A stretch of DNA of 46,030 nt from an uncultured Lachnospiraceae bacterium. GTDB lineage: Bacteria > Bacillota > Clostridia > Lachnospirales > Lachnospiraceae. The translations under genes and the position numbers were made by a program. Where the stretch lies: assembly GCA_902776305.1 (NCBI GenBank), contig CACYPS010000022.1, positions 1 through 46,030 on the forward strand, read 5' to 3'. Position 1 is the stretch's first letter; the number at the start of each line of letters is the position of its first letter. The notes under the pieces were generated by a model, which saw only the letters and a program-made list of their open reading frames with translations, did not search any database and was not told where the DNA came from. This document shows, in pieces, positions 7,673 to 13,856 of this stretch.

Positions 7673-9163
7673 TTACTCCTCCCCATATTTATGGAGGATC
7701 TCATCGCCCGCCACATACGACGCATCGACCTTCTTCCCGTTCTCCCTGTCGAACACGACAATATTAAGTCCCGGTCCCTGGAGATCATAATTGTTCAGAT
7801 CCACTATGATCTGAGATCCGCTTCCCTCTTCCGCTGAGCGGCTCAGGGCCAGCACACTGACGCCGTCGACCTTTTCCTCATAAAGGTCGGAGGTGAGGGA
7901 GAAATCGCTTGTCTCATAGACCACATTTCCCCGGTCAATGACTGCGATGTAGGCGTGATTGCCGGCGGCGGAGTCAACATTTGCAAGCCCCAGCGCTTTC
8001 AACGACGCCTTCACCGTATCGGTCATGGACGGTGTAGTATCCCCGGAAGCCACAAATACATAGAGGTAGTTATCGGTGTCATATGTCTCGAGCATCCGGG
8101 CAAAATAGGAGGCTGTCCGGTTGTCCGTCGCCAACGACTGACGTGCCCGGAAGTGAAGATAACTCTCATAGTCTTTTTCGAGGAATGCATAGCCCTGCTC
8201 TTCCCGTCTGTCCGGCAGGTCACACAGACCCTTCAGCTCTTTTCCGAGGACAGCTGAAAATTTTTCGGCACCGCTCAGATTAAGATGCATCCCGTCGAGC
8301 GTATCCGTTGTGCAGTCAAGACCGAGCGAGGTGGTCTTATCGATGAGGTTGAGGCAGGAGATGTGGTGTGCATTTGCAAATCTCTCCACCGCATAGCTCT
8401 CATTAATTCTCTGCGGATACAGATTGTCTGTCAGAAGCCCCGGTCCGAACACCGGCAGTGTCAGGAACACAAGCTTCGTGCCGGTCTCCTCGCAGAGCTG
8501 CACGGTCTTCTCCATATACTCGGTGACAATTTCCGGAAGTTCGTAGGTCGTATCCGGCGTCACCGGCTCGAAGTATCCGGAATCTCTCCCCTGCGCAAGG
8601 ATCCAGGAGCCGTATGCCGCCCCGGAATCCTCATGAATCACTTCTTCTTCCGTCAGATTTGTCCAACGGGAGTGATATTCGTACCACGGGAACAGGAAGC
8701 GGGTCAAATCATCTTCCTCCTTCCCGACGCCGCGAATCATCTCGTATCTTGATTTTGAGAAAAACGGCATGTTATCCGTTATATAGTGGAGATCCTCCGT
8801 TCCCTCGTAGGTCGTCTGATAATCGCCCATCCCGACCTCAAGGACGACCATCTTCGGGTGCTGGCGCTCGATCGCATCCTTCAGTACATAGTAGGAAAGT
8901 GCGGCTGTCTGATCGCCTGTCCCGAGGTTATAAGAGGAGATGCCGTATTCATTGTAGAGAGTCATGGGGAAGACGCCCTGCTTGATTTTGGATGTTCCGA
9001 GGAACAGGACGTCGAAGCGGTCCTTGTCCTTCCGATAGAAGTCTCTCGGGAGTACATAGTTCCCGTCATCCGGCGTGAAGGCACGGAAAAAGAACCCGGC
9101 CGTGAGGGCAAGGATGATCAGGAACAGTATGTATGTGACAATACGCTTCGCAATACTTTTCAT
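7673..9163 (-). CDS. Membrane-anchored SGNH/GDSL-type protein of an MBOAT acylation cassette (DltD-like)
   Basis: Predicted cell-surface acyl-transfer or esterase partner of the MBOAT protein, 496 residues. Residues 8-29 form one N-terminal membrane anchor, so the rest faces outside. SGNH features: FDVLFLGTSKIKQGVFP with nucleophile Ser58, YNLGTGDQTAAL (block II position), LEVGMGDY (about 108-115), and the C-terminal pair Asp290/His293 in DTLDGMHLN. A further domain of about 170 residues follows (ASYFARMLETYDTDNYLYVF onward) that I do not recognise; it ends with VAGDEILHKYGEE. It is the last gene after MBOAT and ACP on the same strand, separated from ACP by a 144-base gap filled with repeats. 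By analogy with DltB/DltC/DltD it would move an acyl group to a wall polymer or polysaccharide. The acyl group and acceptor are unknown. Confidence 0.78.
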   Translation of the reverse strand: MKSIAKRIVTYILFLIILALTAGFFFRAFTPDDGNYVLPRDFYRKDKDRFDVLFLGTSKIKQGVFPMTLYNEYGISSYNLGTGDQTAALSYYVLKDAIERQHPKMVVLEVGMGDYQTTYEGTEDLHYITDNMPFFSKSRYEMIRGVGKEEDDLTRFLFPWYEYHSRWTNLTEEEVIHEDSGAAYGSWILAQGRDSGYFEPVTPDTTYELPEIVTEYMEKTVQLCEETGTKLVFLTLPVFGPGLLTDNLYPQRINESYAVERFANAHHISCLNLIDKTTSLGLDCTTDTLDGMHLNLSGAEKFSAVLGKELKGLCDLPDRREEQGYAFLEKDYESYLHFRARQSLATDNRTASYFARMLETYDTDNYLYVFVASGDTTPSMTDTVKASLKALGLANVDSAAGNHAYIAVIDRGNVVYETSDFSLTSDLYEEKVDGVSVLALSRSAEEGSGSQIIVDLNNYDLQGPGLNIVVFDRENGKKVDASYVAGDEILHKYGEE

Positions 9164-9170
9164 GGGTTTT

Positions 9171-9300
9171 ATTCTTCATCGCGCAATACTCGTGACGTAA
9201 GTCTGTGATACATGCGCAAAATGACAATATTCTTTCTTCATCGCGCGATACTCGTGGCCTGAGACTATAATACTCGCGCAACGTGATACTCGTCTTCTTA
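9171..9300. repeat. Family B repeat, two tandem units inside an operon
   Basis: Two units of about 63 bases, each with TTCTTCATCGCGC(A/G)ATACTCGTG and AAGTCTGTGATA or GAGACTATAATA, then GCGCAA and a TGACAATATTC or TGATACTCGTC end. They fill the gap between the ACP gene and the SGNH gene, where they could affect RNA stability or the dose of downstream gene product. Confidence 0.65.
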
Positions 9301-9307
9301 CTCGTTT

Positions 9308-9547
9308 TTACTCATTCTGAAGTCTGTCGATCAGCTCGCACATAGCGTCGACCGTATTGAAATTCTCCGGCACAAGGTCAGTAGCCTTCACCTTGATATC
9401 GAACTCGTCGTTGATCTCGCTGACGATAGAGATGATATCGAAAGAGCCGAGGATCTTGTCGTCGATAAGAGCTTCCTCTCCCTCAAAGTCAACATCCGGT
9501 CTGGTCTCCTCAAGAATCTCCAGAAGTACGCTTTTGATTTCGTCCAT
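9308..9547 (-). CDS. Acyl carrier protein (DltC/ACP type)
   Basis: A 79-residue acidic carrier protein. The phosphopantetheine attachment Ser is Ser35 in ILGSFDIISIVSEINDEF, and the four-helix ACP pattern is clear. The start at 9547 has GGAGAAAA upstream (reverse of ttttctcc). It lies between the MBOAT and SGNH genes on the same strand, so it most likely delivers an activated acyl group to the MBOAT. The motif is GSFD instead of the common DSLD/DSM, as often seen in dedicated carriers outside fatty-acid synthesis. No DltA-like ligase to load it is present in the window. Confidence 0.9.
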   Translation of the reverse strand: MDEIKSVLLEILEETRPDVDFEGEEALIDDKILGSFDIISIVSEINDEFDIKVKATDLVPENFNTVDAMCELIDRLQNE

Positions 9548-9607
9548 TGTTTTTCTCCTTTTCTTATAATTAATGTAATTAAAACTTTCCGCTTGCCTCT
9601 TTCTATC

Positions 9608-9637
9608 TCTGACACGGGGTACAGACCTGTGTCAGAA
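9608..9637. repeat. Inverted repeat at the end of the MBOAT gene
   Basis: TCTGACAC and GTGTCAGA flank GGGGTACAGACCT, ending at the MBOAT stop codon (9632). May attenuate or stabilise the transcript between MBOAT and ACP; no clear U-tract. Confidence 0.45.
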
Positions 9638-11239
9638 CTGCTGATACATAAACGCCCCGACATCAAACCCCGGACCGTAAACGCCGAAAATCAGAATCGC
9701 CCAGATCGCTGCAAGTACAACGATCCATCGGAACACGACCTGCTGGTCAGCGATCACATCGCGGATCCGGACGCCGCGTTCATTTACGACATCAACCGCG
9801 ATCTGCAGAATGATCGCCAGCATGAGAATCGAAAATTCTCTCTCCGACACACCGAGCCTAAAAACAGATCCGTCGGTCAGCACCCATGGGTTGAAGGTCG
9901 AAAACGTCTTTTTCAGCATTTGCACTGCGACAACCGTGTTTGGCGTGCAGTCGAAGTAACGTCCGATCGTGACCAGGAATGTCGTCCTGACCATGCTGAA
10001 CGCTTTCCATCCCGCGGACTTTCCGTTGATATGGAAAATTGCCCGCATTCTCTCATATACCCTCTCGAGCAGAGTATGACTCGATACCAGAGTGGCGTGG
10101 TATATACCGAAGATCACATAGCGCCAGCTGGCTCCGTGCCAGATACCTACGAGAACAAATACTATGAACGATGCCAGTGTCGTCGGTATAACTTTGCCGA
10201 CATAGGGTCCGAGAGTCTTTTTGAGGTTCTTCTGCATTTTTGCAAACGGCTTCGACAAGGCCAGCGGATAGAACACATAATCCTTCATCCAGTTACCGAG
10301 CGTCATATGCCACCTCGTCCAGAACTCGGACACGTCAAGCGCCATATACGGCTGACGGAAATTCTCGGCGAGATGCACCCCGAAGAGCTCGGAAACGCCG
10401 ATGACGATGTCGATACCGCCCGCAAAGTCGCCATACATCTGAATTCCGTAAAACAGCACGCCGAGGAAAACAGTGATGCCGCTGTAAGACTTCGCATCAT
10501 ACTGCGTAATGATCTCCTGAACGATGATCGCACACCTCTCAGCTATGACCATTTTCTTAAAATAGCCCCACAGCATGCGGTAGATGCCGGTCCGGAAGTT
10601 CCTTTCATTGAAAGAGCGCTCTGCGTAAAGATCCGGTGCAAGTGTATCGTGACGGCTGATAGGTCCCTGGATAATCTGCGGGAACCATGATGCAAACAGC
10701 GCGAACTGAAAGATGTTTCTGTCTGCGTCATATTTTTCATTATAGACATCGATGAGATATCCTGTCGTCTGGAACGTGTAAAACGAAATTCCGAGCGGCA
10801 GAATGAAACTGACGACCGGAATCTGCACCGGCACATGCAGGCGGGACAGAAGTCCGTCCACATTGACGGTGAAGAAATTGGCATATTTCAGCACGATCAG
10901 CATGCCTAAGTTTATGAGGAGGGAAAGAAGAAAAATCTTGTGCCGTTTGTCCCGTGCCTTTGCGCGGATGGCCTTCTTTTCGTCCCTCGTTAACGGGTGT
11001 TCGGAATTTTTTATCGTCTGACGGGTCTTCTCGGTGATGCGCTGCATGGTGAGCGCGCCGTAGAAGGTATTTGCGATCGTAATGACAATGAAGATGCCGG
11101 CCTTCAGACCGCCGGAGATGTAATAAAAGAGAATGCTGAATAAAAGCAGGAGCATCCACTGGTATTTGCGGGGAACAAGGTAATAGAGAAGAACGGCAAT
11201 GCCTACGAACGCTATAAAATTAAGAGAAAATACCGCCAT
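9632..11239 (-). CDS. MBOAT-family membrane O-acyltransferase (DltB/AlgI-like)
   Basis: Polytopic membrane acyltransferase, about 535 residues. Diagnostic features: LPLGISFYTFQTTGYLIDVY, QIIQGPISRHD, DVSEFWTRWHMTLGNWMKDY, and the catalytic His in VGIWHGASWRYVIFGIYHA. The ATG at 11237-11239 is chosen because AGGTGG lies just upstream and the first membrane helix starts there; an in-frame extension to 11362 would run through the promoter. It is the first gene of the MBOAT-ACP-SGNH set. The cassette should move an acyl group from the carrier protein across the membrane to an extracellular glycan or polymer. A D-Ala (Dlt) function is less likely because no DltA is nearby. Confidence 0.92.
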   Translation of the reverse strand: MAVFSLNFIAFVGIAVLLYYLVPRKYQWMLLLLFSILFYYISGGLKAGIFIVITIANTFYGALTMQRITEKTRQTIKNSEHPLTRDEKKAIRAKARDKRHKIFLLSLLINLGMLIVLKYANFFTVNVDGLLSRLHVPVQIPVVSFILPLGISFYTFQTTGYLIDVYNEKYDADRNIFQFALFASWFPQIIQGPISRHDTLAPDLYAERSFNERNFRTGIYRMLWGYFKKMVIAERCAIIVQEIITQYDAKSYSGITVFLGVLFYGIQMYGDFAGGIDIVIGVSELFGVHLAENFRQPYMALDVSEFWTRWHMTLGNWMKDYVFYPLALSKPFAKMQKNLKKTLGPYVGKVIPTTLASFIVFVLVGIWHGASWRYVIFGIYHATLVSSHTLLERVYERMRAIFHINGKSAGWKAFSMVRTTFLVTIGRYFDCTPNTVVAVQMLKKTFSTFNPWVLTDGSVFRLGVSEREFSILMLAIILQIAVDVVNERGVRIRDVIADQQVVFRWIVVLAAIWAILIFGVYGPGFDVGAFMYQQF

Positions 11240-11291
11240 GACACCACCTGTAAAAGCTCTTCGTTTTCCTGACAACCTAACATTAACCCCA

Positions 11292-11320
11292 AGTATAGGG
11301 CAATGTAATATACTTGTCAA
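11292..11320 (-). promoter_or_regulatory. Consensus sigma-A promoter of the MBOAT-ACP-SGNH operon
   Basis: On the minus strand TTGACA (11315-11320), exactly 17 bases, then TATACT (11292-11297). It sits about 55 bases upstream of the MBOAT start. One of the strongest promoter matches in the window. Confidence 0.8.
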
Positions 11321-11387
11321 ACAAAACCCGGCGCGCCGGCGTGCGTAAGAGTCGGCTTGCATCTACATCTGCGCACCGGTCGCAAAA

Positions 11388-11418
11388 AAAAAAGGGGCTG
11401 CACAGGCAGCCCCTTTCC
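11388..11418 (-). terminator. Strong rho-independent terminator (minus strand)
   Basis: AAAGGGGCTGC / GCAGCCCCTTT with a short loop; on the minus strand the stem is followed by a run of T (the A-run at 11383-11393 on plus). It would end transcription of the small ORF at 11456-11650 or of any antisense RNA before the MBOAT promoter. Confidence 0.8.
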
Positions 11419-11455: not shown

Positions 11456-11650
11456 TCACAGCTGAAATCTATTCATTCCCTGTAACCCCAATTTGGATTC
11501 CTGTACACACAGCACCCGAACATCAGAGAATTCTCCGTCAGCTATTTGGTAGCCTGATATATCGAACATCGTCTCATCAACATCTGTATCTATGGCGTGG
11601 ATCGTGTAAACCGGCTCAGCGACTTTGTAAGCCGGTCCGATGACAGGCAC
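11456..11650 (-). CDS. Possible small protein, 64 residues, unknown
   Basis: A short open frame with a GTG start at 11648-11650 and AAGAGG immediately upstream (too close to be ideal). An in-frame TGA lies shortly before, so no longer start is available. The translation has mixed composition (DETMFDISGYQIADGEFSDV, RVLCVQESKLGLQGMNRFQL) and does not look low-complexity. The strong terminator at 11388-11418 directly follows it, which supports a real short transcript. No family is recognised. It may instead be a non-coding RNA with a terminator. The surrounding 669-base gap (11240-11908) otherwise holds the MBOAT promoter, this ORF and the inverted repeat at 11723-11759. Confidence 0.3.
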   Translation of the reverse strand: MPVIGPAYKVAEPVYTIHAIDTDVDETMFDISGYQIADGEFSDVRVLCVQESKLGLQGMNRFQL

Positions 11651-11722
11651 CCTCTTATATAGTAAGGGAGTTGTCCGTCATCCTTACTTTTATTTTAGCA
11701 GAATCATGATATACTGTCAGTG

Positions 11723-11759
11723 TTGGCACACTTTTTCTCATTGAGTAAAATTGTGCCAA
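11723..11759. promoter_or_regulatory. Inverted repeat, possible operator upstream of the double-HTH gene
   Basis: TTGGCACA (11723-11730) and TGTGCCAA (11752-11759), perfect inverted half-sites 21 bases apart, about 150 bases before the start of the 606-residue regulator. Spacing of near three helical turns centre to centre fits a dimeric or two-headed DNA-binding protein. TGGCAC also resembles half of a sigma-54 site, but the -12 part is poor. Confidence 0.4.
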
Positions 11760-11908
11760 GAGCTGACGCTCATCTGCCTGTCCGACCCGGCGCGAGCATA
11801 AGCCGCACGTAGAAATCGGCTTTACTGATGGTGATCCGGACGGACACATCTGCCCCGGCAGGAAAATAATCCGGATACAGCACCCGGCTAAACATAAGGA
11901 GACACATA

Positions 11909-13729
11909 ATGCTCTCAGACAGAATCACCACCCTCTTCCACATCCTGCAGTGCACCAACACGGACATAGCCCGCTTCGCCGGATGTTCCCCCTCCAATAT
12001 CTCCCGCCTGAAGAGCGGCACAAGAGAACTCGGTCCGGAAAGCCGCAGCGTTCAGCGCCTGGCGGAAGGTGTATATCGATATGCAGACTATGAAAATATG
12101 CTGCCCGTCCTCGGAGAATTATGCGGAACAGATGAAACTTGTTTCGAATCCATGCTCCCGGCTGTCCTATCATGGCTGTATGCGGAAAGCAGCTTCACTA
12201 CACCGCACTTTGTCACGCCAAAGAGTAAATTAGCCAGAGAAAACCGGCGGCGCAACTTTGGTGAGAGACTTGACCGGGTCATGAATCTTCTGGAACTCTC
12301 CAACTCACAGGTCGCCTCCGCTTTAAATGTGGATGTTTCACTTGTCAGCCGATACCGGAGCGGTATTTATCATCCCAACAGGAATGAACGCATTAAGGAA
12401 AAACTGTCGGAGAGGCTGCTGTTATATGCAGAGAGAACCGGATTCACAGAAGAACTGGCAAAACTGTGCGGTGCTGACCCGACACGGCTGAACGCAGAGA
12501 TAATAGCCGATTGGCTTTATGATACGGAAAAAGAGCGGGCGTCTGAGATGGCGGAAACCTTTTTTCAGTCTATTGATACCTTCTCGCCGGGACAAAGCCA
12601 GTCCACCGCGGGTTCGGAAATTCCGCCTGTCACAGAACTGAAGCGCTACTGGGGAACCTCCGGTCTTCGGGTGGCTACCATAAGGTTTCTTGCAAATTGT
12701 GTCCGGGAAGGCGGAGAAATGCTTCTCTATTCAGATGAGCCGATGGATTGGATGATGGGATCGAATGAGTATTTTATCATGTGGGCATTTCTTATGAAGG
12801 AATGTGTCAAAAATAATGTCCGCATAAGAATCATCCATAATGTCGACAGGATAGGAACGGAGATGATATTTGCCATCAAAGAGTGGTTTCCCTTATATGC
12901 TTCGGGTATGATAGAACCCTACTTATTTAAGACCGTAAAAAATCCGCGCTTTTGTCATACTATTTTCATCCAACCCGGCCATGAGGCTATTCTCGGAACT
13001 TTCCCGGCAGGCGTCGGTGAGAAGAGATGGTATGATTATATTACGGACAAAAGCAGACTGGAGGCAATGGAGGGAAGCTTTCATGCGATGCTTTCCGACT
13101 CCTCTCCGTTCCTGAAAACATATTCTGCCGAAAAATCAGATGCTTTCTGGAAAGTCTGCATGAAGTACAGATCAAAAAAATGGATCTCCATTCTCTCCGG
13201 TCTGTCCATCGGCACGATGCCGGCAGGTCTTCTTGAGCGGATGCTTGACCGCCAGGGAATTACAGGCTCTCTTCGGGAACATATTATAAACATCTATAAA
13301 GAGCGCAGGTTTCAGCTGCGCTATACACTCGATACGGGCGGGATAGATGAAATCATATGTCTGCCGAACCTTGAGAGTGTTCTGCGCGGCGATGTGGCTG
13401 TAAATCTTGGCGCTGAGATGATTGAACATACCCTCTTTTACACATACGTGGATTACGTAGAGCACACAGAAGCGGTCCGGAAATTGGTGAACAGGGAGAA
13501 GAATTACCATTTGACACTGCTGCCCGAAGCTCCTTTCCGCGATCTGCAGGTATTCATCCTTCGGGATGCGGTCGCAGTTCTGAAGTGCAGGGAGCCATAT
13601 ACGGCATTTGTCTTTTTCAACGAACAGCTTGCTCAGTCGGTCCAGGAGTATCTCGATTCGCTGATTGAACAGTATGCGACGGATCGGTTCACGGTGAATC
13701 AGGTTTTGAAGGAGATGCTTACGCTATAG
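11909..13729 (+). CDS. Large putative regulator with two helix-turn-helix modules, unknown family
   Basis: A 606-residue cytoplasmic protein I cannot assign to a characterised family. Residues about 1-45 contain an XRE-like helix-turn-helix (NTDIARFAGCSPSNISRLKS). Residues about 110-160 contain a second, similar one (LSNSQVASALNVDVSLVSRY, then RSGIYHPNRNERI). Residues about 250-380 form a folded middle region beginning YWGTSGLRVATIRFLANCV and including NVRIRIIHNVDRIGTEM and CHTIFIQPGHEAILG, a beta-strand/His pattern faintly like PLD-type sensor domains. The C-terminal 230 residues have no recognised motif. There are no membrane segments. The start at 11909 has AAGGAG upstream. It is convergent with moaA and alone in its transcription unit. 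A ligand-sensing DNA-binding protein is the most likely role; target genes are unknown. Confidence 0.8.
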   Translation: MLSDRITTLFHILQCTNTDIARFAGCSPSNISRLKSGTRELGPESRSVQRLAEGVYRYADYENMLPVLGELCGTDETCFESMLPAVLSWLYAESSFTTPHFVTPKSKLARENRRRNFGERLDRVMNLLELSNSQVASALNVDVSLVSRYRSGIYHPNRNERIKEKLSERLLLYAERTGFTEELAKLCGADPTRLNAEIIADWLYDTEKERASEMAETFFQSIDTFSPGQSQSTAGSEIPPVTELKRYWGTSGLRVATIRFLANCVREGGEMLLYSDEPMDWMMGSNEYFIMWAFLMKECVKNNVRIRIIHNVDRIGTEMIFAIKEWFPLYASGMIEPYLFKTVKNPRFCHTIFIQPGHEAILGTFPAGVGEKRWYDYITDKSRLEAMEGSFHAMLSDSSPFLKTYSAEKSDAFWKVCMKYRSKKWISILSGLSIGTMPAGLLERMLDRQGITGSLREHIINIYKERRFQLRYTLDTGGIDEIICLPNLESVLRGDVAVNLGAEMIEHTLFYTYVDYVEHTEAVRKLVNREKNYHLTLLPEAPFRDLQVFILRDAVAVLKCREPYTAFVFFNEQLAQSVQEYLDSLIEQYATDRFTVNQVLKEMLTL

Positions 13730-13810: not shown

Positions 13811-13856
13811 CAGGGTCAGGCGACCATGCTTGCATGGTCATACTGACCCGGATTTT
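13811..13856 (+). terminator. Terminator-like hairpin, also a repeated element (copy 1)
   Basis: GGGTCAG (13813-13819) pairs with CTGACCC (13843-13849), enclosing GACCATGC-TT-GCATGGTC, followed on plus by GGATTTTTC. It is about 80 bases after the 606-residue gene. A near-identical hairpin without the T-run lies at 34598-34634, so this is a repeat used as a terminator. Confidence 0.65.

Follow-up and report, generated by a model that had tools for sequence, protein, structure and literature searches.

In the window (the whole stretch of 46,030 nucleotides analyzed here), a 606-residue protein is probably a dimeric, self-repressing regulator that reads a composite palindrome with two helix-turn-helix (HTH) heads and senses through a phospholipase D (PLD) fold lacking its catalytic residues. 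We consider this reading, taken as a whole, the best explanation of the data, with our confidence lowered a little because some family members have no operator core, the core limits of one comparison were uneven and the helix/arm correspondence has exceptions. The family is real and unusual: its parts (XRE-type HTHs and a TrmB-like dead PLD fold) are known, and their combination has no name in the libraries searched, which is consistent with an earlier note, made from the letters alone, that proposed a large one-component regulator. A candidate operator can be read from the sequence as well. The features are collected in the table.

Features of the regulator locus, with the basis of each assignment
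Feature	Positions	Strand	Basis
Regulator gene, 606 aa, two HTHs and two PLD-fold lobes	11909..13729	+	ORF, relatives, predicted model
HTH1 (residues 2-61, with recognition helix at ~28-36)	11912..12091	+	Model helices; sub-threshold Pfam
HTH2 (residues 107-177, with recognition helix at ~143-151)	12227..12439	+	
PLD-fold lobe 1, residues 241-402, without HKD motif	12629..13114	+	Predicted model, alignment
PLD-fold lobe 2, residues 403-606	13115..13726	+	Predicted model, structure search
Terminator-like hairpin 3' of regulator gene	13836..13848	+	Consensus match only
Operator candidate, 37-bp inverted repeat	11723..11759	.	Conserved palindrome in close loci; core family-wide
Operator fixed-spacing part, 33 bp	11725-11757	.	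Close relatives
Operator inner core	11736-11746	.	TCTCATTGAGT; family consensus TGTCAWTGACA
Operator arms	11725-11730 and 11752-11757	.	GGCACA/TGTGCC in window
Predicted extended -10 of regulator promoter, TGATATACT	11707..11715	+	By eye, aligned loci
Divergent promoter-like site CTGACA-17-TAAAAT	11692..11720	-	Consensus scan, partly in aligned loci
64-aa remnant of relatives' divergent lipoprotein gene	11456..11650	-	Similarity to L027, L089
Terminator-like hairpin after remnant	11389..11418	-	Consensus scan

The reading frame starts with ATG, is unbroken and is conserved in relatives. The ribosome site described in the earlier note is AAGGAG at 11896-11901, 7 nt upstream of the ATG, and the absence of a membrane segment agrees with a maximal 19-residue Kyte-Doolittle mean of 1.16. 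GC by codon position is 0.52/0.40/0.55, with a higher third-position value (0.63) in the neighboring genes, so that the codon usage, previously called good, is acceptable and not identical to that of the neighbors. The gene converges with moaA and precedes a terminator-like hairpin (a consensus match only), as the proposed monocistronic layout facing moaA implies.

Both XRE-like HTHs reported previously were recovered, at different levels of support. HTH2, of the Cro/C1 type, exceeds the Pfam cut-offs (HTH_31 at 117-194, Xre-like-HTH at 121-174, HTH_3 at 126-157). HTH1 stays under them by sequence (best E 0.0089), and its helices, 17-24 and 28-36, are present in the predicted model. The single HTH of the shorter family members aligns with HTH2, whose helix motif DxSxxSR is, like the operator core, near-invariant.

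Past the HTH region, no family was matched in Pfam, NCBIfam or PHROGs, as expected from the roughly 440 residues noted to hold no recognized domain. A PDB sequence search with the single protein gave weak matches only (E at least 0.64, none past residue 226), and a search with a profile of 55 rows retrieved HTH proteins plus a single chance match, neither PLD nor TrmB being among them. When the whole predicted model was searched with Foldseek, the best matches were two-lobed phospholipase D enzymes (E 3.3e-5); each lobe also matched PLD enzymes individually, and the predicted fold corresponds to the PLD-like effector domain of the TrmB family. The earlier guess of a PLD- or TrmB-like middle region is thus in accord with the predicted fold, and the last 200 residues, which had gone unmentioned, form the predicted second lobe.

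The catalytic motif HxKxxxxD does not occur in the window protein. An HKD string is found in 2 of 55 relatives, aligned to window residue 408, off the expected strand, and at window residue 352 a Lys occurs in 2 of 55, preceded by Gln instead of His. Judged from the model, the regulator is PLD-like in fold, and by motif it is not a PLD enzyme. Residues S275, D276, H310, R314, E318, W326, P328, Y330 and G333 are retained in 50-54 of the 55 aligned relatives.

Close relatives (92, 56, 54, 54 and 49% identity, one of the 54% sequences being a contig-end fragment) come from assembled Clostridia genomes with goat, red deer and RUG samples named in their titles, a single one being labeled Anaerolineaceae; L029 is 45% identical, and the frameshifted L025 copy was excluded from protein alignments. 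More distant relatives, including fragments, were found at E up to 0.001 in 15 of 61 near genomes, at E up to 1e-40 in 37 of 299 genomes of the family sample, at E up to 1e-10 in 41 of 392 of the order sample and 29 of 291 of the class sample, and at E up to 1e-20 in 31 of 299 of the phylum sample; these samples overlap, and each counts the genome of the window itself. The members fall into three layouts. Those of about 600 aa, the window type, have two HTHs and two lobes; those of about 500 aa have one HTH and two lobes; and those of about 480 aa (L048, L055 and L120, for example) have two HTHs and match over lobe 1 alone. Among 72,556 plasmid records two matched, both from Lachnospira eligens, at 20% identity, with a best core of 2 mismatches in the 1 kb upstream of the gene. 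This distant one-HTH relative (L202 4995-6497, NC_012780.1), on the large L. eligens plasmid and annotated as 'hypothetical protein' (WP_012740606.1), adjoins genes for a TetR-like protein, an acyltransferase, an ACP and an adenylate-forming enzyme. A literature search by title and beginning of abstract returned no title describing the regulator family, which does not prove absence, and the ten papers containing TGTCAATGACA were, by title, on other subjects, none on this family.

The inverted repeat noticed earlier upstream of the gene (TTGGCACA/TGTGCCAA, 11723-11730/11752-11759) lies within a larger palindrome, whose 33-bp part of fixed spacing is present in all 8 close loci (one of which, L022, is almost a duplicate of the window); because of this conservation the repeat is not a chance one, and it becomes a candidate palindromic operator. 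The arms differ among these loci (GGCACA, GGACAA, GTCACA, TTCACA) and keep 5 or 6 of 6 positions complementary, with the CATTG center unchanged in 8 of 8. In the 4.08-Mb genome the operator was found once within 3 mismatches, in front of the regulator. It overlaps the predicted promoter of the regulator, and a consensus scan proposes another forward promoter (TTGGCA-17-TAAAAT, 11723-11751) that likewise overlaps it; from this overlap we infer a local autorepressor.

The operator center recurs before distant members as TGTCAWTGACA. To limit circularity, the core was tested on 40 members fetched afterwards, from the 56 loci L106-L161; omitted were repeats of earlier loci (L106, L107, L109, L111, L151), partial or stop-holding loci (L122, L153-L156, L159-L161), L128 and L149 with short upstream DNA, and L127. 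Upstream versus downstream, the core was found exactly in 7/40 versus 0/39, with at most 1 mismatch in 17/40 versus 1/39 and with at most 2 in 26/40 versus 2/39, and 19 of the 40 upstream regions reached p <= 0.05 against their own shuffles. Fourteen of the 40 have no good core upstream (at least 3 mismatches). Five of the omitted loci, checked afterwards, gave a best core of at most 1 mismatch in one case (L149, 1 mismatch; L153, 2; L127, L128 and L154, 4, with only 52 bases available for L128). Across 16 genomes, 15 of them picked for an exact core at their family gene, we counted between 1 and 10 exact copies of the 11-mer per genome, 75 in total versus 34 for the reversed control, so the core is not a frequent repeat.

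We compared the arms with the number of HTHs after aligning sites on the core. The aligned set took in 35 of the 60 two-HTH members and 18 of the 38 one-HTH members, 25 and 20 staying outside it, and the core limit was looser for the former (at most 4 mismatches with CAWTG) than for the latter (at most 2); the near-identical loci L022, L059, L008, L041, L052 and L051 were skipped. Symmetric pairing at offsets 11-14 was seen in 22, 22, 23 and 24 of 35 two-HTH members (expected 9.4), versus 2, 5, 6 and 7 of 18 one-HTH members (expected 4.9), which is chance. Pairing at offset 16 is above expectation in one-HTH members (10/18), and on the right their sites carry a TGNCA on one side only, near +12 to +16, so that our initial rule of arms only with two HTHs was too simple. 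At L135, L139, L140, L148 and L152 this right half-site stands about one turn from the core with no symmetric left partner.

The arms also vary with the recognition helix of HTH1. The helix SPSNISRLKSG goes with GGCACA arms in the window, L023 and L027 (GTCACA/TGTGCC in L026), SSGNISKLKTG with GGACAA in L024 and L029, and DR[TS] helices with GTGACA in L004, L005, L031 and L057, arms that occur with other helices too (L042). TTCC..GGAA arms accompany 7 of 13 SRY helices and 0 of 16 other helices (Fisher p 0.001, relatedness ignored; near-identical loci L022, L059, L008 and L041 skipped). Exceptions are L042 and L134 (arms of the TGACA type, no DR helix), L108 (GTGCCA beside a DRSN helix) and the 6 of 13 SRY helices without TTCC..GGAA arms. 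These associations, together with that of HTH number, lead us to read HTH2 as contacting the core and HTH1 the arms.

Of 57 loci, 47 have a divergent gene upstream of the regulator. By our own hydropathy rule, applied to genes called with a simple long-ORF script, 29 of these 47 neighbors are exported-like, versus 60 of 392 other genes and 14 of 56 downstream neighbors. The proportion is 26/33 for regulators of at least 560 aa and 3/14 for smaller ones. The count covers 57 of 65 loci, after removal of near copies (L090, L091, L103, L180), L104 (no upstream gene), L025 and L173 (frameshifted or split) and L094 (tandem regulators); L085, the sister of the window, is not in it. L094 (8155-11854) has two family members in a same-strand tandem, preceded by a divergent gene.

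The divergent neighbors are of several kinds (zinc-ribbon, SLH, leucine-rich, Ig-like, DUF4214, lipoproteins), and several have no Pfam match at all; these assignments displaced our first guess, from gene sizes, of efflux functions. Five loci with short (one-HTH) regulators carry a look-alike divergent gene of 100-108 aa without a Pfam match (L194 7150-7452, L195 6959-7285, L197 5812-6120, L198 5536-5838, L199 4705-5010). The products share EIRLKTGFFxTxLYxL, and for four of the five BLAST links them to other loci at 1e-10; the likeness of L198 was judged by eye only.

In the window, the divergent gene is a remnant with 58% identity over 36 aa to L027 3794-5413 and 64% over 25 aa to L089 4012-5226, and its frame carries stops in the sister genome. 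The intact lipoprotein gene adjoins the regulator in L089-L091 and lies nearby in L027 and L023. The TAAAAT of the divergent promoter-like site is present in the window, L022, L023, L026 and L027 (TAGAAT in L025), and its CTGACA, among the aligned close loci, only in the window, L022 and L027. The operator center (11741) would fall near -56 of this site, a usual place for activation. Of the targets proposed in the earlier note, cofactor genes were rejected, as moaA is convergent, no link between it and the regulator was found and the 4.08-Mb genome has no second operator within 3 mismatches. Control of envelope genes fits the exported-like neighbors of the relatives; in the window the divergent gene beside the operator is the remnant.

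Together, these data suggest a cytosolic one-component transcription regulator, whose dimer would most likely place four HTHs on one composite palindrome. HTH2, common to the family, would bind the inner core, and HTH1, present in two-HTH members only, the outer arms. Occupancy of a site that overlaps the regulator's own promoter would probably cause self-repression. The site of relatives occupies the space between the regulator and the divergent, usually exported-like gene, which is probably the real target; in the window genome this presumed target is reduced to a remnant. The two PLD-fold lobes without catalytic HKD would serve as the sensor, and a small, perhaps phosphorylated ligand in an altered lobe-1 pocket would alter DNA binding.

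Other explanations were weighed against this one. HTH1 and HTH2 might divide the site otherwise, for instance as a tetramer on core-type half-sites, in which case the two-head code would be wrong and autoregulation right; many arms (GTGACA, GGCACA) do resemble a core half-site, and one-HTH members have their extra one-sided TGNCA about 12-16 bp from the center. We think this unlikely, though worth serious thought, given that one-HTH members have symmetric arms at offsets 11-14 no more often than chance and that the TTCC..GGAA arms, which do not resemble the core, go solely with SRY helices in HTH1. That the palindrome is instead a leader element, folding as an RNA hairpin where the transcript begins (its 5' end), is very improbable. 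Its arms change and remain complementary, and it starts just after the predicted -10 in 6 of the 8 close loci (boxes placed by eye), as a leader would; in L024 and L029, however, it lies upstream of the predicted -10, also by eye, and would not be transcribed, which speaks for DNA. Its center forms a palindrome of its own that is found again, at varying distances, in distant members, and the symmetry of the arms tracks the number of HTHs.

As to the target in the window, the regulator might now control the divergent operon at 7673-11362 (-), which encodes a DltB-like MBOAT protein, a small carrier with a PP-binding match (9308-9547) and a 496-aa protein of no clear family, and which resembles a Dlt-like acyl-transfer set. 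The order of genes is the same in the sister genome L085, the first gene is the MBOAT one and the second has the PP-binding match, and a divergent promoter-like site adjoins the operator. Against such control of acyl transfer at the envelope, the remnant and the terminator-like hairpin following it intervene, and that MBOAT gene occurs only in the window and its sister among 26 loci compared; this MBOAT/ACP operon is thus only a possible target, and an improbable one. Very improbable is a sensor body that is really an enzyme with a new active site, a reading that would account for the near-invariant polar residues S275, D276, H310, R314 and E318. The PLD catalytic motif is missing at the aligned strand, and TrmB, a solved relative of the fold, is titled a sugar-binding transcriptional regulator.

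On the preferred reading of a two-headed regulator with a sensor body, a broader picture may be sketched, which we put forward tentatively and with some doubt. A widespread, unnamed Clostridia family would use a disabled two-lobed PLD as a cytosolic sensor with a new pocket; each HTH would read its own element of the composite operator, arms and recognition helix diverging together against a fixed core; and the regulators would adjust the output of divergent genes for surface or exported proteins, a phosphodiester from lipids or the envelope being perhaps the signal. The family is directly testable and is carried by about a tenth of the sampled Clostridia genomes, and the paired change of helix and arm against a fixed core offers a natural data set on how HTHs choose DNA. 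The neighbors suggest a layer of control over exported and surface proteins in gut and rumen bacteria.

Among known systems, archaeal TrmB and TrmBL2 (PDB 2f5t, 3qph, 5bpi) share the PLD-like effector fold with the predicted model, which would extend the idea of a dead PLD as a sensor to bacterial proteins whose DNA-binding head is a different one. The regulator differs in having two PLD lobes per chain, in coming from Clostridia instead of archaea and in giving no match by sequence: no TrmB model matched the window protein, nor was one among the matches listed for the 55 members (25 of 40 families). In place of the winged HTH that forms the TrmB head, it has two XRE-type HTHs, and these heads match XRE-type Pfam models. 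Two-lobed PLD enzymes (Streptomyces PLD, PLD3/PLD4) match both lobes in fold, whereas the regulator has no HKD motifs and carries DNA-binding heads; the Foldseek rmsd over both lobes is 17-20 Å, so either the lobes are arranged unlike those of the enzymes or their arrangement in the model is unsure. Compared with XRE-type controller proteins such as C.BclI (PDB 2b5a), the regulator adds a second HTH and a large sensor, and its candidate operator is composite, with two kinds of half-site.
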